Below, one piece after another: positions 17,376-36,894 of a stretch of DNA of 41,803 bases. The notes under the pieces were generated by a model that worked only from the letters and a program-made list of their open reading frames with translations, made no database searches and was not told the DNA's origin. Each line of letters starts with the position of its first letter. Within the stretch, counting starts at the first letter, position 1. Source of the DNA: a virus; the IMG/VR virus record IMGVR_UViG_3300041809_000716, positions 1-41,803 of that record, one strand, 5' to 3'. Made by a program: the position numbers and the translations under genes.

Positions 17376-18293
17376 TCAAACGGTCTCGTCCGACGCGATG
17401 GTGCCGACTCCGGCCTCCTCCGTGCGGGTGAGATCCAAGAGCATGACCGTGCGGATTTGCAGGGCGTGCTTCTGGGTGGCGATGACGTCGACGTGCGTGC
17501 GGGTGTCCGACCCGATGCCCATCTTCAGGAAACGCTTCTGCCAGAAAATGCAGGTGCGGATTCCGGCCGATGTCACCGGGAGGAGCTGGGTCAACTTGAA
17601 GTCGAACCCGAGGAAACGCTGGATCTTGCCGTCGACCAGAGCCTTCACGTCGTTGTACAGGTAGTTCGCAACTTGGTCCACGTTGGTCAGCAGGTTGTTC
17701 AACTGCTTGGCCGAGTAGCCGAGGAAGCGATCCATCTGCGGGACTTCGTTCGAGTCCAGCACGTAGCGGGCTTGCGTCATCTTTTTCAGCGTCATGCCGA
17801 TGTTGACCGAGCCGTTTCCGAAGGTGACGGCGATCTGGTTTGCGGCCAGAAGCTGAACCTGAGTCGTGCCGTTCGGTCCGGTGAAGTTCGTGCCCGTGGC
17901 GCCGTTGATCAGGACGATGTCCTTGTTGCGGTTCGCCACCGTCGCATGGGTCATGATCGCCGGACCCTCGGGGTCGGGCAACTCGCCAAGCGCAACCGGG
18001 TCGAACTCGTCGTAGATCGTCGTCTTGTCGTAGGGACGCGGACGCAGCCACCGCTGGCCGGTCGGAATGTTGCTTGGTTGGGACGGGCCAGCGCGGTCTG
18101 TGACCTCGCGCATGACGTCCGTCGAAGAGCCGTAAAGGTCGATCCGGAAATAGGCCCCCTTCACGTTCTTGAGTTCGTATGTTCCAGCAAATCGCTGATC
18201 GAGTTGCTGCGCCACCACCTGGTGCCAAGTGTCGTCAAACTGCGTTTGAAAATCTTGGACTAGGCTCGGCCAGACTTGTCCTACACCAGCCAT
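17376..18293 (-). CDS. Major capsid protein
   Basis: 305 residues. The N-terminus (Phe-Gln-x-Gln-Phe-x-Asp near 15-20, then a Gln-Gln-Leu-Asp-Gln-Arg segment) and the general pattern resemble the podoviral capsid family often annotated simply as phage capsid protein (HK97 fold expected). Other typical parts are a Tyr-Asp-Glu-Phe-Asp strand near 93-97, a Lys-Lys-Met-Thr-Gln-Ala-Arg helix near 170 and an Ile-Gln-Thr/Arg-Thr-type C-terminal beta segment. Position after scaffold and co-chaperonin genes, in its own unit between two terminators, is what is expected for the most abundant structural protein. No Shine-Dalgarno is visible directly upstream of its ATG, which is odd for a strongly expressed gene. 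Identity is by context and sequence character. Confidence 0.8.
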   Translation of the reverse strand: MAGVGQVWPSLVQDFQTQFDDTWHQVVAQQLDQRFAGTYELKNVKGAYFRIDLYGSSTDVMREVTDRAGPSQPSNIPTGQRWLRPRPYDKTTIYDEFDPVALGELPDPEGPAIMTHATVANRNKDIVLINGATGTNFTGPNGTTQVQLLAANQIAVTFGNGSVNIGMTLKKMTQARYVLDSNEVPQMDRFLGYSAKQLNNLLTNVDQVANYLYNDVKALVDGKIQRFLGFDFKLTQLLPVTSAGIRTCIFWQKRFLKMGIGSDTRTHVDVIATQKHALQIRTVMLLDLTRTEEAGVGTIASDETV

Positions 18294-18583: not shown

Positions 18584-19204
18584 TCAGGCAGCTTTTTCGG
18601 CCCTTCGGTCCTTTCTGTCAAAGGCTTTCTTCGCATCGTCCCAGACGCCGATGATGTCGTTCTCGTTGATGATGGTGAACATTTCGTCGCCGAACCGGAC
18701 CTCGGATCCGGCGTAGCGGTTGAGCAGCACGCGGTCTCCGGCCTTCAGCTTGAATGCAATTCGGTTCCGACCCGTGCCCTTGCCGTGGCCAACCGCGACG
18801 ACCTCAACCCCTTGGCGCTCCCGATGGACTCCCGCGGGGATCCAGATGCCCTTTCGGATTTCCTCCTTCTCCCTGATGTGCTTGATCAGGATGCGGTCCC
18901 CGATGGGCAGGCATGCCCCTTTGTGCACGATGCAGTTCACGTGGCGCTCGCGGATCGCGTACACCATCTGGCCATTCAGCTCGAAGCGAAACTCCCCTTC
19001 GACGAAGTTCTGAATCCACACGACCTGCCGTTTCTTGAGCAGACAGTCGGGACCGGCCGCGACCACCGGGCACCTGCCATATTGTCGAGCGGTGTCCGGC
19101 AGTTCGATGCCGCCGAGTGTTGTCTTTGCCTCCTTGATCGGCCGCAGGATCAGCCAGTCCTGCATGGGCCGAAGGGTGCCGGTGAACTGCTGCGCGCCGA
19201 ACAT
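18584..19204 (-). CDS. Tandem double GroES-like co-chaperonin
   Basis: 206 residues holding two GroES (Cpn10)-like domains. Domain 1 (about 12-93) has Leu-Arg-Pro-x-x-Asp-Trp-Leu-Ile-Leu-Arg-Pro, a mobile-loop-like Thr-Leu-Gly-Gly-Ile-Glu-Leu-Pro-Asp-Thr-Ala (29-39) and Val-Val-Ala-Ala-Gly-Pro. Domain 2 (about 100-188) has Ile-Gly-Asp-Arg-Ile-Leu-Ile-Lys, a loop with Gly-Ile-Trp-Ile-Pro (119-123), Val-Glu-Val-Val-Ala-Val-Gly-x-Gly, Leu-Lys-Ala-Gly-Asp-Arg-Val-Leu, and an Ile-Asn-Glu-Asn-Asp-Ile-Ile-Gly-Val ending. Both loops keep the hydrophobic I-x-L/I tripeptide by which GroES binds GroEL. Phage GroES substitutes (T4 gp31) enlarge the folding cage for capsid protein; here the gene is between scaffold and capsid genes. 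Double-domain forms are known in chloroplast Cpn20. A 13-residue basic C-terminal tail follows. The start is at 19204, sharing one base with the scaffold stop. Confidence 0.85.
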   Translation of the reverse strand: MFGAQQFTGTLRPMQDWLILRPIKEAKTTLGGIELPDTARQYGRCPVVAAGPDCLLKKRQVVWIQNFVEGEFRFELNGQMVYAIRERHVNCIVHKGACLPIGDRILIKHIREKEEIRKGIWIPAGVHRERQGVEVVAVGHGKGTGRNRIAFKLKAGDRVLLNRYAGSEVRFGDEMFTIINENDIIGVWDDAKKAFDRKDRRAEKAA

Positions 19205-20178
19205 CAGGCGGGCACCGCTTTTTTGCGGCGCTCGTTGAACAGCCGATAGAGTTCGTTCACCCGGTCCTTGGCTGCCTCGTGCTGCGGGTGCTCGCTCTCG
19301 TGCCATGCCTTATACATGGGGTTGTTCGGGTTGTTCATCACGTCAAGGGCCTGCTGGCGCTCGTTCGCTCCCGCGCCTTCCACCGCATCGCCTTTGATCA
19401 ACCGGTCCTCGGAGACCAAGTTTGTGAACCGCACGCAAGCCGCCCGCACCGATGCGTCCCTGAAGAGGTTGCTCTTCGGATCGATGCCGAGTGTGGCGGC
19501 GCCTCGGGTGGCCAGGTTCATCGCCTTGTCCTGGTCGATCCCGGCCTTCTGCATCGCCTGGGCGAAGACGTTATCCTGGTTGGTCCAGTACTGCGACTCG
19601 TAGGTCTGGGCGGCGGCAATCTCCTGGCGGGTGGCCTGGAGCTGCATGTTCATCAGCTCCTTAAACTGCGACGGCCCGATGCTCAACTTCTGGGCGAGAG
19701 CCGCCCATCCGGCCACTTGGTCATCGCGCCAGAACTTGGCGTCCAAGTCGTCCGGCTTCGTGATTCCGTAGGCCTTCACCAACTCCGCAGGCTCCTTGGC
19801 GGTCGGGACGTTGTTGATCAGGTTCAGGTGCGCGGTGCGTTCGGCGATCTGCTGGGGGGTCGCGTCGGGAGGAAGCGGAGTCATCGCCTTGGCGACCGCC
19901 ATCTTATTCGCCGCCGCGGCTCCGCCAAACAATCCTTCAAGAGTCTCGTATTTCCCGAACCAGTCCTTGTGGGCCTTGATCGCCTCGGGCGCCTTGTCCC
20001 AAACATCCTTGTTGATCTTCCCATCCGCTCCATAGAGGCCATCAAACCAAGGCTTATCGCCAGCGGGCGGCGGAGGAGGAGGTGCACCACCCGGGGGCGG
20101 AGGCGGCGGGGAACCGCCGGGAGGAGGAGGGGGCGGCGCGCCGCCAGGAGGAGGAGGATTTGCGTCAGCCATGGTCAC
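19204..20178 (-). CDS. Scaffold-like protein with polyproline N-terminus
   Basis: 324 residues from a GTG that overlaps the previous stop; an ATG two codons in (20172) is an alternative start. Residues 8-38 are four blocks of four to six prolines separated by Gly-Gly-Ala or Gly-Gly-Ser. The rest is Ala/Gln/Lys/Glu-rich and helical, with a Leu-Ile-Asn-Asn-Val-Pro segment, Gly-Ile-Thr-Lys-Pro-Asp-Asp-Leu, an Asn-Pro-Asn-Asn-Pro-Met-Tyr stretch and a basic C-terminus with Arg-Arg-Lys-Lys. A charged, mostly helical protein of about 300 residues between portal and capsid genes is the usual signature of a podoviral scaffold; scaffolds carry capsid-binding basic C-termini. No catalytic motif is visible. 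The proline repeats are unusual for the family. Confidence 0.75.
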   Translation of the reverse strand: MTMADANPPPPGGAPPPPPPGGSPPPPPPGGAPPPPPPAGDKPWFDGLYGADGKINKDVWDKAPEAIKAHKDWFGKYETLEGLFGGAAAANKMAVAKAMTPLPPDATPQQIAERTAHLNLINNVPTAKEPAELVKAYGITKPDDLDAKFWRDDQVAGWAALAQKLSIGPSQFKELMNMQLQATRQEIAAAQTYESQYWTNQDNVFAQAMQKAGIDQDKAMNLATRGAATLGIDPKSNLFRDASVRAACVRFTNLVSEDRLIKGDAVEGAGANERQQALDVMNNPNNPMYKAWHESEHPQHEAAKDRVNELYRLFNERRKKAVPA

Positions 20179-23605: not shown

Positions 23606-23880
23606 TCGGGTGGGTAAAAGTAGAGTTTTGTTTCGCTGGCTGACTCCGTGGCTAACGTCTTCGCCCAAGCGCAGAACAGATCAGAATTGTTCCAATCGCC
23701 GCGCCTGATGCCGATGACCCACTGACCCCAGGCAGTCAGGAAGATGCCGAATGACTGCGCCTCGAACGGTCGGGCCTGGCGCTCGATCTCGTCTGGCACA
23801 TTTGACCGGCTAGTCGCCATGACGAGTACGGACTCCACCGAAGGGCGCCGCATCGGATAGTATGCTCGCTGCGTGGTCAT
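23602..23880 (-). CDS. Small protein downstream of TerL, unknown
   Basis: 92 residues from the ATG overlapping the TerL stop. The product is mixed charged/aromatic with Gly-Ile-Phe-Leu-Thr-Ala-Trp-Gly-Gln-Trp-Val-Ile-Gly-Ile (about 44-58), suggesting a compact beta-type fold, and ends with Tyr-Phe-Tyr-Pro-Pro-Glu. No family recognised. Coupled on both sides, so probably co-translated with TerL and the next gene. Confidence 0.6.
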   Translation of the reverse strand: MTTQRAYYPMRRPSVESVLVMATSRSNVPDEIERQARPFEAQSFGIFLTAWGQWVIGIRRGDWNNSDLFCAWAKTLATESASETKLYFYPPE

Positions 23881-25535
23881 GCCAGTATGCTCCTTGGTTT
23901 CGGCCGCCAGTCGCCGCGGGCCGCATTCCAACCGGCCAGGATGACCTTGCGTTCGCCGCCCTGGCTCTGGCGGGCGATCATGCTCGTGCCGGGCAGCAGT
24001 CCTTTTAGCTCGGCTTCCGCCAGGCAGCGGAGGGCATCGGCTCCGTGGCTGTTCTCGTCGTGGACCGGCATCTCCTTGATGACGCCGCTGCTCGCGTCCT
24101 GCTTGGTGTGGTAGCCTTCAAGGCAACCGATGCCGGATGGCATGATGCGACCCTCGTGGAACCACTCTGTTCCGCAGTTCGTCTTATGGAAGACGAAGCG
24201 AGGGAGCAGGGATCGGAGACGCTGGATGCCGAGCCATTTGTCATCGCAGACGGTCACGACCTGGGTGTTCGGCAGTCCGCACTCGCGCAGATAATCCCGA
24301 TAGCTTTTCCCGCTGAGTTCTTTCGAGTCGGCGTCGTGCGGCAGGAAGTTGGTCTGCACGACCGTCTCGTAGCGGCGCTCCCACTCGCGGACCACCGCGG
24401 AGTAGTAGGGCGGATCCTCCCCGCAGTTGCAGCGGTAGGCCAAGACCCAGAACTCGGTGCCCACGAGCTGAACGAGCCAGATCGACGTGAAGTCGGAGCG
24501 GCCGATGTCCCAGAAGGTCAGCAGCGGATTGTTGCGGTCGTGCTCGAAATCGACGATCCGCTTCTTCGCCCGAAGCTGGGTGATCAGCTTACCGTAGATC
24601 GAACCCGAAACGACGGCCTCGAAGCACTCCTCCACGACCGACGGATACTCTTTGAGGATCGACTCGCCGATAGTCTGCTTCTTTTTGACGTACCAGTACA
24701 TCTGCTCGCGGGTGAGCTTGATGCCGCGCTGGGCCAGGCGCTCGAAGTATTCGGCGTCTTCCTGGCTGAGCTTGAACCACTGATCGACCGCCAGCGTGTA
24801 TTTGCGATGCCTCCACCACTCGAAGAAATGGAACCGCCAGTCCATGGCCGACAGCGGTTCGCGGGCCTCCATGGCGATCCGATTGAAGTGGTACGAGACT
24901 CCGAATTTCCCGCCCTCGTGCGAGGATTCGATGACGACCGTGTTGCCTGGGTGGACAGTGTTGACCGCGCCCTTCTTGATTTCCTCCGCGCGCTCAGGGT
25001 CGTAGAACGAGATGTAGGCCAGCTCCGTCACCCAAAGGAACTGCAGGGTGCCACCGCGCATGTTTGTGCCGCACCAGACCTTCGATCCGTTCTTCCACTG
25101 CATTTCCTTCTTATTGTCGAAGACGAGAGGCACAGAAGCTTTGATCAGCGCACCGATGCCCGAGGTCGTCGGGTCGTCTGCATCGTCCAGGTGCTCGTAG
25201 GCGAAGCTGATCTTGGCAAGCTTGCGCTTGCCGTCGTCGTCCGTCTTGTCGATCACGCCGCAGGTTTTGTTTCCCGAGAAGAGGCAGAAGTCCAACACCC
25301 GGATGGCGACGTAGGTCGAGATCCCGATCTGGCGGGTCTTCAGCACATCGTTCAAGCAGTGCCAGTTGTTGTGAAGCGCCACCTGCTCCTCGTTGGGGTG
25401 AAACTTCACCTTCCGGCCGTTCTCGTCCTCGATCCAGTAAAGATTGTCCAAACGCCACGCTTGGCTGGCGAGCTTCCGGCGTATCTCCTCGCGGGCCGCT
25501 TCCTCGGACACGTGGAGTTGGTCGGCGTCGGTCAT
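23877..25535 (-). CDS. terL: Terminase large subunit
   Basis: 552 residues, normal for TerL. ATPase part: a variant Walker A, Leu-Lys-Thr-Arg-Gln-Ile-Gly-Ile-Ser-Thr (65-74), a Walker B-like Phe-Leu-Trp-Val-Thr-Glu (166-171) and a Glu-Ser-Ser-His-Glu-Gly-Gly coupling motif (203-209). Nuclease part: Phe-Trp-Asp-Ile-Gly-Arg-Ser-Asp (342-349, metal-binding Asp344), a Pro-His-Asp-Ala-Asp segment (400-404) and a final His-Asp-Glu-Asn-Ser-His-Gly-Ala-Asp-Ala-Leu-Arg (493-504, Asp501). It docks on the portal and cuts the genome when the head is full. Unusually it follows the tailspike gene and is about 9.5 kb from the putative small subunit. The start shares one base with the tailspike stop. Confidence 0.92.
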   Translation of the reverse strand: MTDADQLHVSEEAAREEIRRKLASQAWRLDNLYWIEDENGRKVKFHPNEEQVALHNNWHCLNDVLKTRQIGISTYVAIRVLDFCLFSGNKTCGVIDKTDDDGKRKLAKISFAYEHLDDADDPTTSGIGALIKASVPLVFDNKKEMQWKNGSKVWCGTNMRGGTLQFLWVTELAYISFYDPERAEEIKKGAVNTVHPGNTVVIESSHEGGKFGVSYHFNRIAMEAREPLSAMDWRFHFFEWWRHRKYTLAVDQWFKLSQEDAEYFERLAQRGIKLTREQMYWYVKKKQTIGESILKEYPSVVEECFEAVVSGSIYGKLITQLRAKKRIVDFEHDRNNPLLTFWDIGRSDFTSIWLVQLVGTEFWVLAYRCNCGEDPPYYSAVVREWERRYETVVQTNFLPHDADSKELSGKSYRDYLRECGLPNTQVVTVCDDKWLGIQRLRSLLPRFVFHKTNCGTEWFHEGRIMPSGIGCLEGYHTKQDASSGVIKEMPVHDENSHGADALRCLAEAELKGLLPGTSMIARQSQGGERKVILAGWNAARGDWRPKPRSILA

Positions 25536-27052
25536 TAGAATAGTATTTCCGTGATCGAATCGTTGGTTCCGCTGTCCGTGTAGTTCGTCGCGCAGGATGC
25601 GAAGGTCAGGTCTCTCGCGCTCGATGTGTTTGCTGACGAATCAAAAATGAATCCGGTTCCTGTGCATTCCGCTATGAAGCAAGTTGCCACTTTATTATAG
25701 TAACCAGCCAATGAGATTCCGTTCGTGCAGGTTGATGAACCAACCACACCGAGACGGCAGCCTGTGATTATGTTGTAACCGCCAGCTCCTCGTGAACCCG
25801 AAGCCTGTTTGATCCCATACGTCGGCGTCCCGTTCCAAAGCACGTAAAGTTGGTCCACATTGTTCTGCGCAGAGCCGCCGAAATCCACGGCCCCCACATA
25901 GGGATTGCAGTAACATCCACCCTTTATCCAGGTATTCCCGGTCCAGTCCCCACAAACCCACCCTTTTCCCACATTAACGGCATCGCAGTTGTTGAAGACC
26001 GTTCCCTCAGTGGCAAGGGAGGCCCCGGAATTACCGTCTATATTGTACGCGATTGTTGAATTAGTTCCTGCGTAACCATACACAGAGCACCCATCAAGGT
26101 ATGTGTTTCCACCCACCGTAAGAATGTTGAAGCCTATGGTCGGCCAGCTTGCGCTAGTGGACTGTTGGTAGGTTATGTCATTGAGGTAAAAACGCAGGGC
26201 TGGAAAGGTGCTCCTCAGGTCCACCCCGTGGTCCCAGTTGCCAGTGATTAAAATGTCGGCAGCGACCAAAAGCGTCGTGATCGCCGCAGCGCTCGATCCG
26301 CTTGCGTAGGCGAGGGCGTAATATCCTGACCCAGGGGTTCCCGTCTGGTTGAGGGCTAGGTTCCTGATTTGGGCAGTCGAACCCCCCGTCCCATAGTTAA
26401 AATAGATCCCCTGACCTGCGCAGTTCAGATTTGTGCAGCTCTGGCCGTCGCCCAGTACTAGGGCCGGGACGGTGATAGCCGTCAAGTTGCTTGAAATCTT
26501 GTAATTGTTTGGAGTCGCTGGAAAATATAGAACGCCAGCCCCGGCAGAATTTAGGGCGGCTATGGCCGAGTTGATTGCACTAGAGTCATCCGTAGACCCA
26601 TTGCCAGTAGCGCCGTAAGTTTTGACGTTGAACCACGGTAAGGCGCCGGATGATCCGTTCGCCGCAGCGGTAAGCCTACCATCGGCCCCGACCGTGATGT
26701 TCGGGTTGGTGTAGGATCCAGGCGTCACTGCCGTCGCCGGGATGTCGGCCGCAACCATGCTCCTGAACGTCGGTGCTGCTGCAGACCCGCTCGCTGGTCC
26801 TGCGAGAATTTTATTCGCAAGCTGGATCGCCTTCGTGAGCGCCAGTGTTCCTGAACTTGTGATCGGACTTCCTGCGACCGCCAAAATATCGGTCGGCACA
26901 GTCATCGCCACACTTGTTACAGTTCCAGACCCACCCCCACCGCCTCCAGTCGGTGTTCCTCCGGTTGCTGGCGTGTTGTCAGGTTGGGGCCCTTGCGCTG
27001 CCCTGTCTGTGACGGTGACCGATCCCGTATTGCTGGCGGGTGAGCCGGCCAT
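25535..27052 (-). CDS. Tailspike with right-handed beta-helix (pectate-lyase-like)
   Basis: 505 residues with a very strong Shine-Dalgarno. The N-terminus is low-complexity (a Gly run at 36-43), then Gly-Thr-Val-Thr-Ser-Val-x-Met and Ser-Ser-Gly-Thr-Leu-Ala-Leu, standard in phage fibres/spikes. At 139-180 the Trp-Phe-Asn-Val-Lys-Thr-Tyr-Gly-Ala-Thr-Gly-Asn-Gly-x-Thr-Asp-Asp-x-x-Ala-Ile segment followed by Gly-Val-Leu-Tyr-Phe-Pro is the start of a Pectate_lyase_3 beta-helix; repeats of Asn/Gly/Thr-rich coils run to the end. Such spikes bind or cut capsule/O-antigen. It has no recognisable virion-anchoring domain and is encoded away from the tail genes, next to the sugar-transfer cassette. Catalytic residues cannot be assigned. 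Confidence 0.85.
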   Translation of the reverse strand: MAGSPASNTGSVTVTDRAAQGPQPDNTPATGGTPTGGGGGGSGTVTSVAMTVPTDILAVAGSPITSSGTLALTKAIQLANKILAGPASGSAAAPTFRSMVAADIPATAVTPGSYTNPNITVGADGRLTAAANGSSGALPWFNVKTYGATGNGSTDDSSAINSAIAALNSAGAGVLYFPATPNNYKISSNLTAITVPALVLGDGQSCTNLNCAGQGIYFNYGTGGSTAQIRNLALNQTGTPGSGYYALAYASGSSAAAITTLLVAADILITGNWDHGVDLRSTFPALRFYLNDITYQQSTSASWPTIGFNILTVGGNTYLDGCSVYGYAGTNSTIAYNIDGNSGASLATEGTVFNNCDAVNVGKGWVCGDWTGNTWIKGGCYCNPYVGAVDFGGSAQNNVDQLYVLWNGTPTYGIKQASGSRGAGGYNIITGCRLGVVGSSTCTNGISLAGYYNKVATCFIAECTGTGFIFDSSANTSSARDLTFASCATNYTDSGTNDSITEILF

Positions 27053-27245: not shown

Positions 27246-27683
27246 TTACTGAGCCGATGCAGAGCGTCCTATCTCGTGCCAGTTCGAGCCGTCGGAAACC
27301 CACGTCATGCTGATCGACTTGCCCGCCGTCACGACCGCTGTAGCTGTCGGCAAGAAGTACGTCCCGAGCGTGTAGGTCACGGTCCCGCTGGCGTCGGCCG
27401 ATAGGATCGTGATCAAGAACTGCCCGAACTGCCCGGTCTGGCCGGCGTTCACCGTGCAGGTCGCCGAGGTGGTGTTGACCCCCAGAATCTGATGTACGGC
27501 GCCGAGCGACGGATTGAGAGTGATCGTCGCCGCGAAGGTCGAGTGGAGGATCGGGGCACCGGGTCCGCCCGCAATCTGCGCGAGAGGTGCGGCCGGCTGG
27601 TTGTAGATCGTCGCCTGGGCGTGGACGGAAGCGGCGAAAACAATCAGGGCTGCCGCGAAGAGGAATGAGGAGAACTTTTTCAT
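27246..27683 (-). CDS. Exported beta-rich protein
   Basis: 145 residues from ATG 27683; an open frame extending to 27770 is not needed. Residues 1-22 are a clear Sec signal peptide (Met-Lys-Lys, Phe/Ala/Leu core, Ser-Val-His-Ala cleavage). The mature part is Thr/Ala/Gly/Ile-rich with Cys at about 81 and a C-terminal Ser-Met-Thr-Trp-Val-Ser-Asp-Gly-Ser-Asn-Trp-His-Glu-Ile-Gly, a phrase frequent at the ends of phage fibre or decoration proteins. It resembles the exported proteins at 1-2491 in design. It lies between the GT11-like gene and the tailspike unit. Confidence 0.8.
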   Translation of the reverse strand: MKKFSSFLFAAALIVFAASVHAQATIYNQPAAPLAQIAGGPGAPILHSTFAATITLNPSLGAVHQILGVNTTSATCTVNAGQTGQFGQFLITILSADASGTVTYTLGTYFLPTATAVVTAGKSISMTWVSDGSNWHEIGRSASAQ

Positions 27684-27735: not shown

Positions 27736-28533
27736 TCAAGAGTCCCTGAGCCGCAGTTCGGAATGCCCAACCCACCACTCGGTCAGGGGCGCGTGGTTGC
27801 CTTCGATGAACGGTACGTCCTGAAAACCTCGGTCTGAGCCTTCATGGGAAATGCCTCGCTGGTCCGGGCTGAAGACTCGATCGTGATTTCCAAGCTCGGC
27901 CGCCCACCAGCTAAAGGTCGAAGGCGCTCGGAACAAAACCTTGGCACGCATCAGCAGAACGAAGTCTGGCAGGAAGCCTATGCCTGGGATGTGGTCGCTC
28001 GCACGTCCCTTCCAGCGGAACATGGGGTCAATATGCGGCACGGTGCTGGGCTCCTCCTCAGAGACGAACACGAGCTTGGCTCGGTCCACCCCATACTGAT
28101 CGCAGGCCCGGAGGTACGAATCTTTGCTGATGCAAATGAATCCCCCGTGCGTCACATAGTCGCCCCAACGTAGGTGCGCTGCAGCCTCAACCGTCGGCAC
28201 CGAACGAAGCAGGTCTAGAATCTCCGGCCGGAACTTGAACCATCGCCGTGCATCCGCCCGCGTGTATATCAGGTGCTTGCCGTGCTGCGGATCGCCCCGG
28301 ATGCAAACGTCCACCCGCCCGTTCCACTGCTCGAACTCGAACGTGCCAACCTCGGGCAGTCCGTTTGGGTACATCGGCATTGTCTCATGCTCGATCCCGA
28401 ATATCTCATGGGCCTGCGGCCAGGGGCTCGTGCGCAGCGTGCAGCCGTACTGCTCAGCGTACTTGCGGGCGAATGCGTATTTAAACAGTCGATTTCCCCA
28501 GCCCCCGCTCATCTCGCAGTCGATGAAGGGCAT
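27736..28533 (-). CDS. GT11-family glycosyltransferase (fucosyltransferase-like)
   Basis: 265 residues, typical for bacterial alpha-1,2-fucosyltransferases. Motifs in order: Gly-Gly-Trp-Gly-Asn-Arg-Leu-Phe-Lys-Tyr-Ala-Phe-Ala (10-22; family consensus GGLGNQ-FQYAFA), His-Leu-Arg-Trp-Gly-Asp-Tyr-Val (120-127; consensus HxRRGDY, with the second Arg replaced by Trp) and Ser-Thr-Phe-Ser-Trp-Trp-Ala-Ala-Glu-Leu (205-214). The enzyme would transfer a sugar, usually fucose from GDP-fucose, to a glycan acceptor in the cytosol. The Arg-to-Trp change sits in the nucleotide-sugar site and could alter donor use. Last gene of the surface-sugar cassette. Confidence 0.85.
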   Translation of the reverse strand: MPFIDCEMSGGWGNRLFKYAFARKYAEQYGCTLRTSPWPQAHEIFGIEHETMPMYPNGLPEVGTFEFEQWNGRVDVCIRGDPQHGKHLIYTRADARRWFKFRPEILDLLRSVPTVEAAAHLRWGDYVTHGGFICISKDSYLRACDQYGVDRAKLVFVSEEEPSTVPHIDPMFRWKGRASDHIPGIGFLPDFVLLMRAKVLFRAPSTFSWWAAELGNHDRVFSPDQRGISHEGSDRGFQDVPFIEGNHAPLTEWWVGHSELRLRDS

Positions 28534-28536
28534 GGC

Positions 28537-29145
28537 TCACTTCGGATTTAGCCACGCCTCGGTCGCTCGGTCCTGCAGCCACTTGATCAGCGGGCCGGCA
28601 ACGAGCGTAGGCACGGCAATGATCACGTCCTCGTAGACGAATACCGCGCGCGGATACCGGGTGAGCAGCTTCACGATCAGCGAGAGGTCAGGCCACTTGT
28701 AGGCATCGTGCGGGTGGACCGGGGGACCGAGAAAGTACCGCGCGTCGTCGATTAGGATGATGTCCTCCAGGTTGTATTCGTTGATCGCCAGAAGTTCTCG
28801 GACAACCGGGCATTCGTCGCCGCTGTCGCCGGCCGTGTTCGATCCCGGTCCCATCCAGTGGGCGTCGAGCCAGAAGATGGCGGGTTCTCCGCGAGCATAA
28901 TACTCAAGAACTTTTGCCGAATCCCCAAAGACGACTTCTATATTCGGCGAGGTTATGAACCGCTCGCAAGCCTTCTGTGCAATGTCCGCTTTGGCCTCGA
29001 TCGTAAGGACGTGCCCGAAGTGCTGCGCGGCCCAGGCGGCGCTGTCCCCCCCGAGCGTACCCGTTTCGATGAATCGTTTGATGCCGCTCTTGTCCTTGAG
29101 GAACAGGACCAGCTCTTGGGGGATGCCGTGTCGTATGGCGCCCAC
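28537..29145 (-). CDS. SAM-methyltransferase-like protein
   Basis: 202 residues. The opening Phe-Ile-Glu-Thr-Gly-Thr-Leu-Gly-Gly-Asp-Ser (25-35) and Val-Leu-Thr-Ile-Glu-Ala-Lys (45-52) match the first two motifs of a Rossmann methyltransferase of the type often encoded beside glycosyltransferases. Phe-Trp-Leu-Asp-Ala-His-Trp (91-97) and Asp-Glu-Cys-Pro-Val-Val-Arg-Glu-Leu (110-118) follow, where similar proteins have an LDAHW / CP-x-x-x-E-L pair. The Gly-rich loop is altered relative to classical GxGxG. Substrate unknown, probably sugar or glycan. Confidence 0.75.
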   Translation of the reverse strand: MGAIRHGIPQELVLFLKDKSGIKRFIETGTLGGDSAAWAAQHFGHVLTIEAKADIAQKACERFITSPNIEVVFGDSAKVLEYYARGEPAIFWLDAHWMGPGSNTAGDSGDECPVVRELLAINEYNLEDIILIDDARYFLGPPVHPHDAYKWPDLSLIVKLLTRYPRAVFVYEDVIIAVPTLVAGPLIKWLQDRATEAWLNPK

Positions 29146-29146
29146 G

Positions 29147-30577
29147 TTATTTGATGACGCGCTCCAGCCGAGGCAGAATGTACTCCCGTTTCTTCGTCGC
29201 GTGGGTCAGTCCGTCATCATGCACATTGCCCCAATTCTCCCGTACGTTGCGTTCTGAGAGGCGGGCGCGCATCCCATCGTAGCGTCGGGCGATGCGATCA
29301 ATCGGGCCCAGTTGGTGGCAGTGGAGCATGAAAACAGGTGGGTAGGTCTTCGCGGTGTCCTCCCGCATGTTGACCGCTCGGCCATCGTAGAGGACAGGCC
29401 GGCTCTCGTGCGCTCCGATCCCGAAGCCGGACTCGGCCACTATCGTAGGGCTGAACATGACCGGCTTGGCGTACCACTTGTCATCTCTGGCGCCGATCTT
29501 GACATGATCGTACAATTGCCCAGGTCCACTCGGGAAGGTCTCGGAGAACATTTCGAAGCCATGTGGCTTGACGATCCCGATGTCGAGCCGGGCGTAGGTC
29601 TCCAGCGTGTCCGCTATCCCTTCAGGGAAGTAGATCAGCTCGTCGGCGTCGACGACGATCACCCAGTCAGCCTCCGTTCCCCGCCAGCACTCATTCTTCA
29701 AATCCCGCGTAGTGGCGTCGTTCATCTGGCCGCCCGTGTCCCAAGGGACCACCGCACCGTACTGAAGCGCGATCTGCCGAGTGCGATCGGTAGATCCTGC
29801 GTCGTGCACCACGATCTTGCTGGCGAACTGCGCGTAGTGCCGAAGGGTCCACGGAAGGATGTCCTCCTCATTGAAGGCGATGATGTGCACCTCAATCTCC
29901 ATCTCTCGGAAATCGTAGTGCTTGTGGTGGCGCAGGTAGGGGCGCTCCCAAAATTCCCGGTAGGCGTAGGCGTCCAAGCCGATCACCTCTTCAAGCCTGA
30001 TCAGGTTCCAGTCCTGATGGACGCCCTCGGGGTTGATCGAGCGGTGCTCGCCAGAGTACCCAGGCTTGCCGGGCATGCCCTTGATGCCGACCACGAATCG
30101 CTCCGAGTCGTTCCGGGGCATGTGGAGGTAGCGTCCTCCGTCCTTTAGCCATAGCCGGGTGTCGAAGAATGGGCTGTCGTAAGACTCGATCGTGTTGCAC
30201 AGGTACTCAAACAAGTCGGAGGTGATCGCGGTCTGGCAGAGAGCGGCGTGGCGGACGTTGCAGCATTCGGACCACCAGCGGTGGCGCACGGAATAGTAAA
30301 AGGCATCTCCCTGGCCTACGATGTCGAAACTCTCCAGTTGCTTGGCGCACCACGCGAGCCAGTCGGGATGATACCAGTCGTCATCCTCAATCCACACCAG
30401 CCCTTCACCCTTGACCTGGCCGGACTCGATGGCCTTCAGGACTTTAATCGGCATCGGCTCCGGGCCGTCGAGGACCAGCCACTGGTCGGGCTGGCGGGTC
30501 TGCCGATCGATGTACTTGCGGCACAGCTCCATCGCCGCCGGGCGCTCGTAGGTGCAGGTGAGGGCGGTCAGATTCAT
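29147..30577 (-). CDS. Two-domain GT2-type glycosyltransferase
   Basis: 476 residues. Domain 1 (about 1-215): an N-terminal Leu-Thr-Cys-Thr-Tyr-Glu-Arg-Pro strand and Trp-Ile-Glu-Asp-Asp-Asp-Trp-Tyr (62-69) with the DxD-type metal site. Domain 2 (about 225-476): Val-His-Ile-Ile-Ala-Phe-Asn-Glu-Glu-Asp (230-239), His-Asp-Ala-Gly-Ser-Thr-Asp-Arg-Thr (258-266) and Trp-Val-Ile-Val-Val-Asp-Ala-Asp-Glu (305-313), the pattern of GT2/GT92-like glycosyltransferases. Two catalytic domains in one chain may add alternating sugars. It overlaps the small gene before it by 4 bases. Confidence 0.85.
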   Translation of the reverse strand: MNLTALTCTYERPAAMELCRKYIDRQTRQPDQWLVLDGPEPMPIKVLKAIESGQVKGEGLVWIEDDDWYHPDWLAWCAKQLESFDIVGQGDAFYYSVRHRWWSECCNVRHAALCQTAITSDLFEYLCNTIESYDSPFFDTRLWLKDGGRYLHMPRNDSERFVVGIKGMPGKPGYSGEHRSINPEGVHQDWNLIRLEEVIGLDAYAYREFWERPYLRHHKHYDFREMEIEVHIIAFNEEDILPWTLRHYAQFASKIVVHDAGSTDRTRQIALQYGAVVPWDTGGQMNDATTRDLKNECWRGTEADWVIVVDADELIYFPEGIADTLETYARLDIGIVKPHGFEMFSETFPSGPGQLYDHVKIGARDDKWYAKPVMFSPTIVAESGFGIGAHESRPVLYDGRAVNMREDTAKTYPPVFMLHCHQLGPIDRIARRYDGMRARLSERNVRENWGNVHDDGLTHATKKREYILPRLERVIK

Positions 30578-30774
30578 CGAGTGACCCTAACCCAAGAACG
30601 AATGACCCTGCGCCATGGGAATCCCCACATTGTGCAGACCGCCCATCCATCGGGTCCGATGTAATCCACCAGCCAGATGGTATTCGAGTCAACCTTCGCA
30701 TTCCGTTTTTCAGGCATGCAAGCGTCCTCGCATTCGTAAACGCGGTCGCCGGGTTTGGTTGTTGACTGGCTCAT
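30574..30774 (-). CDS. Small protein of the sugar cassette, unknown
   Basis: 66 residues, overlapping the FkbM gene and the two-domain GT gene by 4 bases each. It has two cysteines (Cys15, Cys19) near the N-terminus and a Trp-rich C-terminal half (Trp-Gly-Phe-Pro-Trp-Arg-Arg, about 50-56). No family recognised. Coupling to enzymes on both sides suggests co-expression. Confidence 0.6.
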   Translation of the reverse strand: MSQSTTKPGDRVYECEDACMPEKRNAKVDSNTIWLVDYIGPDGWAVCTMWGFPWRRVIRSWVRVTR

Positions 30775-31391
30775 ATCTCCTCGTTTCGGAACAGCACGTC
30801 ATGGCCGTAGTCCTCGACCAGCGTCCACTTGCCGGGCAGTCGGCGGTGGATTTCCTCGCGCCCGATTTGGCCTTGGTAGAGCTCCTGCTCCCAGACCTCT
30901 GTGTAAAAGTATCGGGTGCGCGCCAGCGCCTTCTGGCCGCCGGCCAGCACCAAGTCCTCCGCGCCCTGCACGTCGCACCAGATCCAGTCAATTGGTCCAA
31001 CCTTCAATTCCGACATGGCGAAGTCGAGCTTCGACATCGGGACGGCGGTCGGCGGTGCGAACTTGATCTGCGGCCAAATCGTCAGGTGCTTGACCGGCTT
31101 CTTGACCGAGCCGGATAGCGTGTGCTCGATGGAGGCGTACCAGCGGGACATGCCGGTGCGGTCTCCGATGGCGCAGGGGATGAGTTTGAAGCGGTCGGCC
31201 AGCGGGTGGGCCTTCAAGGTCGGTTGGTGGTTCGGCTCCGGCTCGAAGGCGATGTAGGTGTAGGGCTTTCCCAGGTCGAGCAGCGCCTGCACGTAGTGGC
31301 TTGTGTCCGCTCCGTCGGCCGCGCCGATCTCGAGCACGGTCGGCTTGGCCGCGCCGGCGATCATATTAAGATAGCGGTCGGTGATGTTCAT
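30771..31391 (-). CDS. FkbM-family methyltransferase
   Basis: 206 residues. SAM-binding motif Val-Leu-Glu-Ile-Gly-Ala-Ala-Asp-Gly (19-27), Phe-Glu-Pro-Glu-Pro (49-53), Pro-Cys-Ala-Ile-Gly-Asp (72-77) and the FkbM hallmark Ile-Trp-Cys-Asp-Val-Gln-Gly-Ala-Glu-Asp (137-146), in which Glu-Gly is replaced by Gln-Gly. FkbM enzymes O-methylate sugars, polyketides and glycans; in phages and bacterial surface loci they often cap or decorate glycans. Here it sits inside a set of glycosyltransferases. It overlaps both neighbours by 4 bases. Confidence 0.85.
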   Translation of the reverse strand: MNITDRYLNMIAGAAKPTVLEIGAADGADTSHYVQALLDLGKPYTYIAFEPEPNHQPTLKAHPLADRFKLIPCAIGDRTGMSRWYASIEHTLSGSVKKPVKHLTIWPQIKFAPPTAVPMSKLDFAMSELKVGPIDWIWCDVQGAEDLVLAGGQKALARTRYFYTEVWEQELYQGQIGREEIHRRLPGKWTLVEDYGHDVLFRNEEI

Positions 31392-31690
31392 GGCACTTCC
31401 TCGTATGTCGCCGCGAATATATCCGGCTTGCAGGGGTAGAACTCGCCTTTGACGCCCTTGATGATCCAGTCGCCCTCGGTGGCGAGCATGGTGCCTTCGG
31501 GTGTTTTGATCAGCAGCCCGATTCGATCATGGTCTATGTCGCGTGGGTTGTCCCCGTATTCTCCTGGCGCGCTATACACCCACACGCCTTTACCAAAAGC
31601 CTCCCTTGAAACGAAATCGCAAATCTCGCTCCACGTCCGCCAGCTTAGCTGGATCGCCTCAATGACGACAGGTTTCTTGCGGAATTTCAT
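31388..31690 (-). CDS. Conserved phage protein of unknown function
   Basis: 100 residues from ATG 31690; the longer open frame runs antisense-like through the upstream gene and is rejected. It opens Met-Lys-Phe-Arg-Lys-Lys-Pro-Val-Val-Ile-Glu-Ala and ends Gly-Asp-Trp-Ile-Ile-Lys-Gly-Val-Lys-Gly-Glu-Phe-Tyr-Pro-Cys-Lys-Pro-Asp-Ile-Phe. This pair of phrases marks one of the commonest small hypothetical families in phages and prophages. No activity is known. It is not obviously related to sugar metabolism. Confidence 0.8.
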   Translation of the reverse strand: MKFRKKPVVIEAIQLSWRTWSEICDFVSREAFGKGVWVYSAPGEYGDNPRDIDHDRIGLLIKTPEGTMLATEGDWIIKGVKGEFYPCKPDIFAATYEEVP

Positions 31691-31692
31691 CG

Positions 31693-32295
31693 TCACGATG
31701 TCCGCCTGAAAGCCCGCGTCCCGCAGTCGATGTTCTCGGTCGGGTCCGGGCAGCCCTCGGCAAATGGCTTCCATGGCTCCCAGGGGAAGTGGATTGCCTC
31801 CAGCGCACGGTTCACGTCGACGGCGAACTCTAGAATCTCCGGCCCATGGTATTGATGCCCCCACCCCTGGCAGGCCGGGTTCGTGTCGTGGTAGCACATG
31901 AAGCCGCCCGGCCTCACGCGGGCGCCGTAGCGCACGGTTTCGATCATCACATGATTCGAGCAATGACAGCCGTCCACCCAGACCAGATCCAGCCCGAACG
32001 GGACTTGGTTAAAGACCTCCGCCGAGTCGCCAATAATCACCGCCGCGTCCTTCGGGATGTACCGCGGGCGGGTCAGGCCCGGGTCCGGGTCTATTCCCCA
32101 GTACATAAGCTCCCGACCGTGGGCCTTGCAGTACGCCTCCAGGCCTCGGGCGGTGTTGCCGTCGTGCATGCCGATTTCGCAGATGCGCAAGGCGGGTGTG
32201 CCGGCCTCCAAGATCGCCGCGAGGCACTTCTCGAGGACAGCGACGTCCTCGTTCAAAATCGCGCCGTACCCACATTCAAAGAGTTTGCCGCTCAT
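31693..32295 (-). CDS. Class I SAM-dependent methyltransferase
   Basis: 200 residues. Ile-Cys-Glu-Ile-Gly-Met-His-Asp-Gly-Asn-Thr-Ala (38-49) is the SAM motif; Trp-Gly-Ile-Asp-Pro (66-70) is the second strand; Val-Trp-Val-Asp-Gly-Cys-His-Cys-Ser-Asn-His-Val (105-116) and Gly-Gly-Phe-Met-Cys-Tyr-His-Asp-Thr (130-138) match the IDGxHxYexV and HD steps of the Methyltransf_24 group used on glycans and nucleoside-antibiotics. Starts 4 bases after the upstream stop. Second of the three methyltransferase-like genes in the cassette; acceptor unknown. Confidence 0.8.
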   Translation of the reverse strand: MSGKLFECGYGAILNEDVAVLEKCLAAILEAGTPALRICEIGMHDGNTARGLEAYCKAHGRELMYWGIDPDPGLTRPRYIPKDAAVIIGDSAEVFNQVPFGLDLVWVDGCHCSNHVMIETVRYGARVRPGGFMCYHDTNPACQGWGHQYHGPEILEFAVDVNRALEAIHFPWEPWKPFAEGCPDPTENIDCGTRAFRRTS

Positions 32296-32299
32296 AAAA

Positions 32300-32671
32300 T
32301 CAGTAGCAGAGCTTTTCGCGCTCCTCGTCGGACACCGACCAGCGCAGGCGATCCATCACAGCTTCGGTCTGTCGATTGAAGAACTCCCAAGCATCAAAAT
32401 CATCCATCTCGACGCCTTTGATCTGGCCATCGGGATAGCGCACACAGATGCGGCAGGAGTGGCGCTCCCAGGGCAGCATGTCGACCATGACCTCGCCGCC
32501 GAGCGTATCGCACAGCCACTGGACGGTGGTCGTATCAACGATCTTGACCGGAAGGCGCTGCACCTTGGCGCGCCGCTCGCGCAACTCATCCATCGCCATG
32601 CCGGCGAGGAACTGTGCCCCTGCGCCGTCGTAGGCTTCCCCAACTATGCCGCAATCAAAGGTGTGCCTCAT
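32300..32671 (-). CDS. Unknown protein (123 aa)
   Basis: 123 residues from the ATG that overlaps the stop of a 35-residue membrane ORF (ATGA). It has Trp-Leu-Cys-Asp-Thr-Leu-Gly-Gly-Glu-Val near the middle, His-Ser-Cys-Arg-Ile-Cys-Val-Arg, and a C-terminal acidic/aromatic helix (Asp-Ala-Trp-Glu-Phe-Phe-Asn-Arg). Four cysteines are spread out and do not form a clear zinc motif. No family recognised. Confidence 0.6.
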   Translation of the reverse strand: MRHTFDCGIVGEAYDGAGAQFLAGMAMDELRERRAKVQRLPVKIVDTTTVQWLCDTLGGEVMVDMLPWERHSCRICVRYPDGQIKGVEMDDFDAWEFFNRQTEAVMDRLRWSVSDEEREKLCY

Positions 32672-32775
32672 GTCTCGTCGTCCCAGTCCTTGTTGGATTT
32701 GTCCACGGCCCGAGTCAGCCAGAATATGCCCACGACCATGATCAAGCCCAGCACGACTGAGGCGATGGCGATCAT
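32668..32775 (-). CDS. Very small membrane protein (35 aa)
   Basis: 35 codons linked to both neighbours by ATGA overlaps. Residues 2-20 are a single hydrophobic helix (Ile/Ala/Val/Leu/Met), followed by a charged Lys-Ser-Asn-Lys-Asp-Trp-Asp-Asp-Glu tail. The short hydrophilic tail suggests a single-pass peptide in the inner membrane. It could assist lysis or anchor the glycan enzymes; neither is shown. Its existence rests on the double overlap and the clean membrane segment. Confidence 0.6.
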   Translation of the reverse strand: MIAIASVVLGLIMVVGIFWLTRAVDKSNKDWDDET

Positions 32776-32906
32776 CGCATGCCGCCGTGAACATTCGCCT
32801 TGGAATAGGCTGATGCGCCCGGCTTGTCAGCTTTCCTCGCACGCTTGATTTTCGCCTTGTGGATGTACCACTGGCCGATGGATCCCATGGGATCACCCTT
32901 GCTCAC
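32772..32906 (-). CDS. Small basic protein with GTG start (44 aa)
   Basis: 44 residues starting at a GTG that overlaps the stop of the glycosyltransferase gene (GTGA) and ending in an ATGA overlap. It is Lys/Arg/Gly-rich with Trp-Tyr-Ile-His-Lys-Ala-Lys-Ile-Lys. An internal ATG six codons in is an alternative start. No family recognised. Confidence 0.55.
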   Translation of the reverse strand: MSKGDPMGSIGQWYIHKAKIKRARKADKPGASAYSKANVHGGMR

Positions 32907-33769
32907 GGCAGAGCCTCCGTGTCGACGCCCGGGATGGCAGGCCACTTCTCGGGGAATACCGTGCCGTCCGCGTCGTGGTGCCTGATCTTGGTCTTGGTGT
33001 CGACGAAGATGGGGATCTGGGCGCAGCGGCAGAGGTAGTCCAGGAAGTAGTCCTCGGGGAACAGCCGTCGGTCCATCACGGGCTGCTGGTAGAATCCGGT
33101 CACGGCCTCCCCGGTGTCGGTGTCGATGTACTCGATCGACTGGCCGCCGGCCTTCGGGTTCACGTCGGTCACGAATATGCGTCGGATTTCCCGGTAGACC
33201 TTGTTGATGATCAGCTTGGCGCCGCCCGCCGCTTCGGCGACCTGGAGGAGTCCGTCGGCCTCGTGCTGGACCTCGGCGACCGGCAGGAACGTGCAGGCCC
33301 ACGAAGGTCTCTTGGTCCGCCGGCAGTACATCCCGGCCACGATGGGCTTGCGGTGGCCGAGCATCCGAAGGACGAACGCCGCTGGGTCTTCCGGGCGAAG
33401 GTCCTGGTCCCAGTTGAGCGTCCAGGTGCTTGTCCCTTTGAGGATGTCGTGGATCGCCCCGTTGCGGGCCCGGCAGATGCCGCCGACGGCGGCCAGGAAC
33501 TCGAAGGTGTAGAACGGGTGGTCCGCCAGTTCACGGAGCGCGCGGCCGATCTGGGGCGCCTGGTCCTGGAGGTACTCGGCCTGCTCCTCGGGCTTGGTCG
33601 GGAACCAGCGGAAGGGCGTGACGATGGTGACGCCGATCTTCCCCGTCTTCGCCACCTGCTCTTCGATGGAGGGGGACTTGGCGACCTTCTTCACGATGTC
33701 GATCACCTGGGTCTCGCCCGCCTTGGTGCCTTCGACGTCGGCCTGGGTGGCGGGGAGGGCTTCGGTCAT
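32903..33769 (-). CDS. GT-A-fold glycosyltransferase
   Basis: 288 residues. After a 40-residue charged leader, Gly-Val-Thr-Ile-Val-Thr-Pro (46-52) starts a Rossmann-like strand. Leu-Asn-Trp-Asp-Gln-Asp-Leu-Arg-Pro (118-126) holds the DxD metal site, then Leu-Gly-His-Arg-Lys-Pro-Ile-Val-Ala-Gly-Met-Tyr-Cys-Arg-Arg (137-151), a pattern known from phage glycosyltransferases of the nucleotide-diphospho-sugar fold (hydrophobic-DxD, then Lys-x-Ile-Val-x-Gly-x-Tyr). A later Pro-Glu-Asp-Tyr-Phe-Leu and Lys-Ile-Arg-His-His are in the acceptor/metal region. It overlaps both neighbours by 4 bases and is the first enzyme of the cassette. Confidence 0.8.
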   Translation of the reverse strand: MTEALPATQADVEGTKAGETQVIDIVKKVAKSPSIEEQVAKTGKIGVTIVTPFRWFPTKPEEQAEYLQDQAPQIGRALRELADHPFYTFEFLAAVGGICRARNGAIHDILKGTSTWTLNWDQDLRPEDPAAFVLRMLGHRKPIVAGMYCRRTKRPSWACTFLPVAEVQHEADGLLQVAEAAGGAKLIINKVYREIRRIFVTDVNPKAGGQSIEYIDTDTGEAVTGFYQQPVMDRRLFPEDYFLDYLCRCAQIPIFVDTKTKIRHHDADGTVFPEKWPAIPGVDTEALP

Positions 33770-35005: not shown

Positions 35006-35632
35006 TCACGACACCCGCTCCGCGAACTTCTCTACCTTACCGCCGTCGATCGAGGTCAGCAGCTGGCTGAAGCTTTCGACGATCTGCACAACGTGCTTCT
35101 CGGCCGGCCCGTCGCCCGCGATCTTCGTGTAAACCTCGAGCGACCGGGCCCGGGCGTTCATGTACGCCGGGCTGGCGCCGCGGCTGCGCGCGTCCCGTGC
35201 CAGGATCTCCAGACGCTCCTCCCGGGTGAGCAGCCGGTGAAGCTCGAAGCGGCCCTGCAGGCGCTTGATCTCGGCTCGAACCTTTGGGTTCTGCGCTATG
35301 CGATAGCCGTGCGTTGCGAGATATCGGGCGCTGGTGTCGCGCGGCTGGTAGACCTGCTCGTAAGCCTTGGTTTGCGAAAGGCCCATTGCTATGAGACTGG
35401 CGAACTCCCTCTGGCGCGAGGACAAACCCTCTATCACAATCGGTGTAGCCTCTTTTGTGGCCTGGGTAGGGGCTACAAGTTGGATTTGCTCCTGCTGCTT
35501 CGCCTGCCAGTCTGCGAGGGTTGCCTTGTCGGGGGCAGAGAGTACGCGGCCGGCCTGCAGCTTCTTCAGGATGTTGGCAACGTTTTGGCTTTCAATGGCC
35601 TCCTGCGTTGCGATTGCCTTCTCTTCGCTCAT
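35006..35632 (-). CDS. terS: Probable terminase small subunit
   Basis: 208 residues from the ATG overlapping the methyltransferase stop; an open frame extending upstream is rejected. Residues 70-126 fit the TerS N-terminal HTH region: Leu-Ser-Ser-Arg-Gln-Arg-Glu-Phe-Ala-Ser, Gln-Thr-Lys-Ala-Tyr-x-x-x-Tyr and Ala-Gln-Asn-Pro-Lys-Val-Arg-Ala-Glu-Ile-Lys-Arg-Leu, where known proteins have LTxKQxxFxxxY ... ATxAAxxAGY ... LxxNPxVxxxI. Here the HTH is preceded by about 65 extra helical residues. TerS recognises viral DNA for packaging. It is about 9.5 kb from TerL, with the sugar cassette between them, an unusual separation. Another HTH role is possible. Confidence 0.7.
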   Translation of the reverse strand: MSEEKAIATQEAIESQNVANILKKLQAGRVLSAPDKATLADWQAKQQEQIQLVAPTQATKEATPIVIEGLSSRQREFASLIAMGLSQTKAYEQVYQPRDTSARYLATHGYRIAQNPKVRAEIKRLQGRFELHRLLTREERLEILARDARSRGASPAYMNARARSLEVYTKIAGDGPAEKHVVQIVESFSQLLTSIDGGKVEKFAERVS

Positions 35633-36894
35633 TGATCTGTGATCAAGGTTGGTTTGCGGCCGGTGAGCTTTGCCCATCGGTCGAGGGTGACAGCAACATA
35701 GGCCGGGAGGATGTCAATACCCAGGCAGACGCGGCCGGTCTGCTCGCAGGCGACGAGGGTGGTGCCGAAGCCAAGGAAGGGGTCGTAGACCGAAGATCCG
35801 ATGAGGGAGTTGTTCTCGATCGGCCGGCGCATGCAGCCGAGGGGCTTGGGGGTGGAATGGCCGTCCCCGTCGCCCTCCCGGGCTGGGTAGTCCCAAACGG
35901 TGGGTTGGTCCCGCTGTCCGGTCCATTGGCTCGTCTTGCCCTTGCGGACGGCGTACCAGCAGGGCTCGTGCTGCCAGTGATAGTTGCCGCGGGAGAGGGC
36001 GAAGCGGTCCTTGCGCCAGATAATCTGGCTACGGACCTCGAATCCAGCTGCCTCCAAGTTGGAGGCCACCGTGCCAGCATGGAGGCCACCGTGCCAAACG
36101 TAGGCCACATCTCCCACGAATAGGGCCCATGCCGGGGTCCAGTCTGCCCGGGCGTCGTTGGCTACCTTTCCCATTTTGCGGGTATTGCGGTTGATTCCGG
36201 CCCTTTTGCGCCAGGCGGGGTCGTAATTCACGCCGTAAGGGGGATCCGTGACCATGAGCCTGGGAGGTGGGATTTTGTTAGATAAAGCGCCATAAAGGCG
36301 CAGGACGTCTCCCTTCAGAGTGGCGTCACCCACGAGGATCCGGTGGTCGTCGCAGCCCCATAGCTGGCCGGTCTCGGTGCCCCATTTCTTTCGCAGCTCC
36401 GCGGCGTGATCGATATCGGGCTCGATGTCCACCTGGGGGTTGCTCCGCGCGATCTTGGCCAGGAGCAGGGCGATTTCCTTGGAATCGTAGCCGGTGAGCT
36501 CGATCTGGGCGCCCTTGGCCGTCAGGTCGCGGATCAGGGCCCCTACCAGTGAATCCTCGCGCTCTGAAAGCTCAGCTATCCGGTTGTCGGCCAGGAGATC
36601 CTGCCATTCCTCCTCCTCGCTCTTGTAGTCCTGCAGGTCGACCGGAACTTCTGCCAGCTTCAGAAAATTGGCCACCAGGAGCTTGCCGTGCCCCTTGATC
36701 ACGTACCCTGATCGGTTGGAAACCACCAAGGGTTGCCGCCACCCCAGGCTCGATATGATCTTGGCGAATATCTCGATCTGTTGCTGGGGGTGCCGGTTGG
36801 GGTTGCGGGGATGGGGTTTGAGCGAGGCTGTGCGCCGCATCTCCTTGAAGGCGCAAAAGATGGGGATGGCCGGCGAGTCCAAAGGGGTCTTCAT
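35629..36894 (-). CDS. ParB-like / DNA methyltransferase fusion (beta class)
   Basis: 421 residues. N-terminal ParB/sulfiredoxin-like domain (about 20-110): Leu-Lys-Pro-His-Pro-Arg-Asn-Pro-Asn, Leu-Gly-Trp-Arg-Gln-Pro-Leu-Val-Val, Val-Ile-Lys-Gly-His-Gly-Lys. C-terminal methyltransferase (about 180-421): Asp-Pro-Pro-Tyr (217-220), Asp-Pro-Phe-Leu-Gly-Phe-Gly-Thr-Thr (371-379) and Leu-Gly-Ile-Asp (391-394), in the IV-then-I order of beta-class N6-adenine/N4-cytosine enzymes; the HxTxKP element reads His-Ser-Thr-Pro-Lys-Pro (346-351). No restriction partner is visible, so it is an orphan, likely protecting phage DNA or marking it for packaging. Coupled by ATGA to the putative TerS. Confident on class; target sequence unknown. 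Confidence 0.9.
   Translation of the reverse strand: MKTPLDSPAIPIFCAFKEMRRTASLKPHPRNPNRHPQQQIEIFAKIISSLGWRQPLVVSNRSGYVIKGHGKLLVANFLKLAEVPVDLQDYKSEEEEWQDLLADNRIAELSEREDSLVGALIRDLTAKGAQIELTGYDSKEIALLLAKIARSNPQVDIEPDIDHAAELRKKWGTETGQLWGCDDHRILVGDATLKGDVLRLYGALSNKIPPPRLMVTDPPYGVNYDPAWRKRAGINRNTRKMGKVANDARADWTPAWALFVGDVAYVWHGGLHAGTVASNLEAAGFEVRSQIIWRKDRFALSRGNYHWQHEPCWYAVRKGKTSQWTGQRDQPTVWDYPAREGDGDGHSTPKPLGCMRRPIENNSLIGSSVYDPFLGFGTTLVACEQTGRVCLGIDILPAYVAVTLDRWAKLTGRKPTLITDQ

Follow-up and report, generated by a model that had tools for sequence, protein, structure and literature searches.

The subject of this work is a cassette of glycosyltransferase (GT) and S-adenosylmethionine (SAM)-dependent methyltransferase (MT) genes at positions 27,736 to 33,769 of the window, that is, of the whole 41,803-nt IMG/VR record IMGVR_UViG_3300041809_000716, a linear contig for which no end repeats are reported. 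This cassette probably serves to glycosylate the virion; the phage is a podophage whose virion genes are distantly related to those of Pelagibacter phage HTVC010P. The initial annotation, made from the sequence alone, had listed here a GT-A glycosyltransferase, a two-domain GT2 protein, a GT11-like protein and three SAM methyltransferases; all of them are present, packed on one strand, so that the phage encodes at least two GT genes along with SAM methyltransferases. Among the acceptors that had been proposed for these enzymes, a virion protein is favored by the recurrent position of the cassette next to the major capsid protein (MCP) gene in relatives and by experimentally studied precedents in other viruses.

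The evidence on the position is as follows. A scan with the MCP of the window (17376..18293, minus strand; phrog_3437, 3.2e-37) retrieved 121 relatives, the best 80 of which were kept and clustered at 90% MCP identity. GT or MT genes were found in the gap between the gene of the Cpn10/GroES-domain protein (in the window 18584..19306, minus strand; PF00166, 1.4e-24) and the MCP gene in 11 of the 25 MCP clusters in which both flanks could be read, as against two GT/MT matches in total in the nine other virion-gene gaps. The MCP scan, which is independent of the cassette genes, also reached all 11 of the GT/MT-bearing clusters. Since the GT and MT profiles were seeded from the cassette proteins and other gene types were not counted, the open reading frames (ORFs) of the GroES-MCP gap were read individually; by reading, the long ones encode GTs, MTs, the small protein g174, DUF3431 and DUF7796 proteins, a radical-SAM-type protein and a nucleotide-sugar dehydrogenase-like ORF. 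The cassette is embedded in a structural operon, on the same strand and tightly packed, between the terminase genes TerS and TerL in the window and between the GroES-like gene and the MCP gene in the relatives. The window GroES/Cpn10 gene, also just upstream of the MCP gene, codes for about 130 extra N-terminal residues, many of its relatives being shorter.

Scans with single cassette proteins converge on a few contigs, and the cassette-bearing relatives are uncultivated podophages, distant kin of HTVC010P by virion genes. Three of them, L008 (3300032665_000106), L023 (3300029955_000060) and L026 (3300037093_000042), have the cassette between the GroES-domain gene and the MCP gene, directly upstream of the latter, in the order Anp1-like GT (Anp1GT), two GT2 domains (GT2n and GT2c), an O-methyltransferase-like protein (MT202), GT11 and FkbM methyltransferase; in the window, FkbM is placed elsewhere. 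The order Anp1GT-GT2n-GT2c-MT202-GT11 is common to the window and L008/L023 despite protein identities of only about 35-54% and the different genome location. Among the relatives the cassette ranges from the Anp1-like GT alone (L149, L153) to six or more enzymes, with intermediates such as Anp1GT-GT2n-MT24-GT2c in L180 and Anp1GT-MT24-fused GT2 in L096 (MT24 standing for a Methyltransf_24 protein), and the Anp1-like GT is the member present in nearly every version. In L162 and L168 the Anp1 domain is, by reading, fused to a methyltransferase, an architecture that would tie methylation to the GT activity. L168 has two Anp1-like GT copies (4341-5144 and 7720-9156), one of which sits between the portal gene and the next head gene, and a second Anp1-like match occurs in the L166 record as well (G014:40087-40761). 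The cassette gap of L023 and L026 also contains a UDP-glucose/GDP-mannose dehydrogenase-like ORF without the third domain.

As to the second site, the minus strand of the window reads TerS (35006..35677; phrog_51, 6.8e-9), four small ORFs, the cassette, g174 (27246..27683), a tailspike-like protein of pectate-lyase fold (25535..27052; PF12708, 2e-7, and tail spike PHROGs) and TerL (23877..25535; phrog_2, 1.6e-18). The interruption of the TerS-TerL pairing noticed at the outset is therefore real in the window, but the cassette does not adjoin TerL, being separated from it by g174 and the spike; the interruption is a trait of the window's clade, and elsewhere the cassette precedes the MCP gene. 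L190 shares with the window the placement of the cassette, g174 and the spike upstream of TerL and not at the MCP gene, and the 3' part of the same arrangement is visible on two short contigs, L107 and L003. These four form one clade of the MCP tree (support 100/100), outside the remaining group. The Anp1GT tree instead groups the window and L190, with strong support (100/99), with L008, L097, L096, L180, L194 and L179, and the MCP-tree arrangement, when forced on the Anp1GT tree, is rejected (approximately unbiased test, p = 0.003). This conflict between the two trees suggests that the cassette was transferred between lineages; given the long branches, we regard the trees as good but not final evidence for it.

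The genes of the cassette, all of them on the minus strand like every assigned gene of the window, follow one another in the order given below, and from the Anp1-like GT to GT11 neighbors either share 4-19 bases or are separated by 1-6. No terminator-like site was found on the coding strand within the cassette, no tRNA was found, and the GC content of the cassette (about 0.60-0.61) is the same as that of the remaining window. The GT2, FkbM and Methyltransf_24 assignments pass the Pfam or NCBIfam cut-offs; GT11, the Anp1-like GT and the methyltransferase at 28537 are weak as lone sequences, and their assignments rest on relatives.

The first gene (32903..33769) encodes the Anp1-like GT-A glycosyltransferase. 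Taken alone, this protein matches Pfam Anp1 weakly (0.041), and Pfam Anp1 matches seven of 17 relatives, with 6.2e-5 at best. The closest PDB match of a profile built from these 17 proteins is the viral GT-A enzyme A197 of Sulfolobus turreted icosahedral virus (STIV; 2c0n, 7.9e-5), the value for yeast Mnn9 against the same profile (0.18) being not significant. The ARN, DxD, ED and H columns are conserved in the family. An AlphaFold2 (AF2) model from six sequences had a predicted local distance difference test score (pLDDT) of 36 and was not used. After an ORF without a family match (32300..32896), the start of which is possibly an internal ATG (giving about 122 aa), comes a Methyltransf_24 methyltransferase (31693..32295; PF13578, 7.5e-10), assigned to the same family hidden Markov model as the methyltransferase of L190 (L190:7586-8389). 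It is followed by a small phage protein (31388..31711), strongly matching phrog_419 (1.9e-32) and embedded among the sugar genes as a bystander or accessory, by the FkbM methyltransferase (30771..31391; PF05050, 4.9e-12; NCBIfam TIGR01444, 2e-15), which is 52% identical to the L008 copy, and by a coupled 66-aa ORF (30574..30774) with a 4-base overlap at each side.

The two-domain GT2 glycosyltransferase (29147..30577) matches PF13704 (4.5e-14) and PF00535 (5.3e-11), both on its C-terminal half (GT2c), and its N-terminal half (GT2n) has a DDD motif; the halves are separate ORFs in L008, L023 and L180, and L096 has a fused homologue of 477 aa. Solved structures gave no match to either GT2 profile or to FkbM. 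The SAM O-methyltransferase-like protein (28537..29145), belonging to the MT202 or FWLDAHW family with 199 viral relatives, matches Pfam Methyltransf_3 weakly when taken alone (E 0.21) and solved O-methyltransferases by phmmer with E 0.003-0.005. Finally, the GT11-type fucosyltransferase (27736..28533), when taken alone, matches PF01531 below the Pfam cut-off (0.028) and the glycosyltransferase family phrog_2644 with 2.7e-7. Its family profile matches human FUT8 (2e-4) and, marginally, POFUT1 (0.013), and keeps the HxRxGDY and STFSWW motifs (HLRWGDY and PSTFSWWA in the window protein), on which grounds we place it among the GT11 fucosyltransferases; its cyanophage relatives are annotated as GT11 or alpha-1,2-fucosyltransferase.

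We propose that the cassette would be transcribed together with the head genes, late in infection, and that its enzymes would act in the host cytoplasm, with SAM and the nucleotide sugars of the host, GDP-fucose among them, as substrates. The Anp1-like GT probably primes a virion surface protein with the first sugar, the target being the MCP or a small beta protein of the surface, for example g165 or g174; the GT2 pair and the GT11 enzyme would lengthen and fucosylate the glycan, and the FkbM, Methyltransf_24 and O-methyltransferase-like enzymes would cap its sugars with methyl groups. The role of such a glycan would be to shield or tune the surface of the particle.

MCP, g165 and g174 are thus the candidate acceptors. 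g174 is a small beta-sandwich virion-type protein, as judged from its family, its genomic contexts and an AF2 model (pLDDT 80), which VIA-align compares to tailspike beta-sandwich domains with Z 9-11 and, more weakly, to the Pa223 capsid spike with Z 7.1. In relatives its normal position is just before the MCP gene. The N-terminus of the window copy is signal-peptide-like (MKKFSSFLFAAALIVFAASVHAQ), a feature absent from the 29 other aligned copies, and this copy of g174 may be exported. As an obligatory acceptor g174 was rejected because its presence does not track that of the GTs: it is missing from many phages with the GTs and present in many without them.

The contents of the cassette are subject to turnover. 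Across almost the whole of a 19-kb stretch, L023 and L026 have 96-100% identity, which falls to 69-89% (in 300-base windows) at GT2c-MT202-GT11. Further dips fall on the small beta-type gene after the portal gene (L023 3754-4160; 78%) and on g165 after the MCP gene (80-91%), and milder ones on the portal 3' end (92%) and GroES/Anp1GT (93-94%). The divergent post-portal beta-type gene and g165 are likely to encode surface-exposed virion proteins. In this pair the cassette genes are under purifying selection, with omega of 0.13-0.29 where dS is measurable. A more specific picture may be drawn, which we offer tentatively and hold to be possible but rather doubtful: the cassette could be a mobile modular island of capsid-glycan variation, in which the first gene is retained and the inner GT and MT genes are replaced, or swapped as alleles between near-identical phages together with the small surface beta proteins, so that the capsid "serotype" would change, the island as a whole having moved between lineages and between two sites of the head block.

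Several observations weigh against virion glycosylation or against this picture of its variation. The MCP-adjacent position is circumstantial, as neighbors of the MCP gene need not modify the MCP. No enrichment in Ser/Thr or Asn was found in the MCP, g165, g302, g1054 and portal proteins of the GT-bearing phages; the sole nominal value among 21 tests, that for Ser/Thr in g213 (p 0.033), is a decrease. g174 accompanies the cassette only in some lineages and cannot be a general acceptor. In the GT11 enzyme, the canonical HxRRGD motif is missing its second Arg. The swap of MT202-GT11 alleles is seen in one phage pair only, since in another pair, L194 and L215 (about 85% identical), the cassette does not stand out from the core.

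Serotype conversion, or modification of an existing host glycan, had also been put forward in the initial annotation. In this case the enzymes, working in the cytoplasm, would decorate lipopolysaccharide (LPS), capsule or teichoic acid and alter the receptor, with serotype conversion or superinfection exclusion as the outcome. Bacterial polysaccharide loci commonly hold FkbM, GT2 and GT11 enzymes, types that are used on surface polysaccharides, and the pectate-lyase-fold spike of the window implies a sugar receptor. Moreover, the unrelated phages L204 and L211, which do not have this MCP type, combine GT2n-GT2c-GT11 with heptosyltransferase-like genes of GT9, an LPS-type family; the set of L211 lies near a terminase gene. 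However, as had been noted from the beginning, no polymerase, flippase or acyltransferase was found, nor was a Gtr-type membrane protein: GtrA and GtrB gave no Pfam or PHROG match, no multi-helix membrane protein is encoded in the cassette, and the GtrB-like phrog_841 reached E 0.32 on part of GT2c. GT2n, GT2c, Anp1GT, FkbM and GT11 are without a strong hydrophobic segment. The genes belong to the head-gene block and are clustered at the MCP gene, and late expression would come too late for the protection of the cell. Host-surface modification is less likely than decoration of the virion, and we regard it as an unlikely explanation.

A loose set of moron genes without a common function would fit the scattering of single genes, such as the MT202 family, across many phages and the differing content of the cassette among relatives; yet the window and L008/L023 retain one order, Anp1GT-GT2n-GT2c-MT202-GT11, at such low identity and at a different location, GT-methyltransferase fusions exist, and purifying selection acts on coding sequences that have stayed intact, all of which renders this explanation quite improbable.

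As for a hypermodified DNA base, glycosylated by the GTs as in the T-even precedent of phage DNA glycosylation, this part of the initial annotation found no support and is highly improbable: the early genes scanned with Pfam encode a single DNA-modifying enzyme, the DNA methylase upstream (35629-36894), which is of the ordinary N6/N4 type, the Pfam-scanned window proteins (some small ORFs being unscanned and the contig possibly incomplete) include no base-hydroxylating, thymidylate-synthase-like or other hypermodification gene, and Anp1- and GT11-type families are not known to be DNA glycosyltransferases. In L190 a C5-cytosine-DNA-methylase-like gene (3253-5184) stands in place of the ParB-like/N6-N4 methylase of the window.

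Virion glycosylation by virus-encoded enzymes has several precedents with which the cassette may be compared. In cluster O mycobacteriophages, three GT-type genes and that of an O-methyltransferase are located between portal and protease (PMC4351075); they are reported, in papers quoting Freeman et al. 2023, to modify the capsid and the tail tube (PMC11600133, PMC12363180). Corndog (gp35-38) and Che8 (gp108-110) resemble the window phage in having several GTs plus an O-methyltransferase, those of Corndog inside the structural operon, and Che8 gp108 resembles, by reading, a GT-methyltransferase fusion. In contrast to the window podophage, both are long-tailed Mycobacterium phages; the Che8 GTs include no GT11, and none is named for Corndog. 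The sequence comparison, made with the Che8 proteins, gave no significant hmmsearch or hhalign match between gp108-110 and the window families. Since homology of the Che8 GTs to the window families is detectable at the level of the GT-A superfamily at most, we claim that the cassette works like these systems, not that it belongs to the same family.

In STIV the GT A197 is essential and the major capsid protein B345 is glycosylated (PMC10551542). A197, which among solved structures best matches the profile of the Anp1-like GT, is likewise a cytoplasmic, virus-encoded GT-A enzyme, but it is a single GT of an archaeal virus, its acceptor is unproven, and the reviewed text of that source describes no methyltransferase cassette. 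In Paramecium bursaria chlorella virus 1 (PBCV-1), A064R, A061L and A111/114R comprise GTs and SAM O-methyltransferases that build the methylated glycan of the major capsid protein (PMC9614988); virus-encoded multi-domain GTs plus SAM O-methyltransferases are common to both systems, but PBCV-1 is a eukaryotic giant virus with N-glycans and other enzymes, and the analogy is one of mechanism only. HTVC010P-type phages share with the window the virion gene order TerL-portal-protease/scaffold-MCP-tail tubular A/B and an MCP that is about 25-32% identical; in contrast to the window, the interval from TerL to the tail tubular genes holds no annotated GT or MT in any of the four records that were examined, namely those of two Pelagibacter phages, a Vibrio phage and a Manatee Spring genome. 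A search of the open-access subset of the literature, in which absence proves little, gave no report of this cassette.

A genome scan for the host retrieved one contig, L269 (PMZA01000513.1), from a fen metagenome-assembled genome labelled Armatimonadetes. Because this contig is of the same phage type and is 100% identical over 18 kb to the IMG/VR contig L194, it is probably misbinned, and Armatimonadetes were not accepted as the host.

In general, virion glycosylation itself is already known; what is unusual here is the hot spot at the capsid gene, the relocation of the cassette and its modular turnover. Only a very small number of phages have been demonstrated to have glycosylated virions, and the reason for the glycosylation is an open question: the work on mycobacteriophages points to antibodies, which would not account for environmental phages. 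A capsid-adjacent glycan hot spot that holds from one to six or more enzymes is a natural series for probing the role of the sugar, and the cassettes supply compact sets of GTs and methyltransferases for glycoprotein synthesis.

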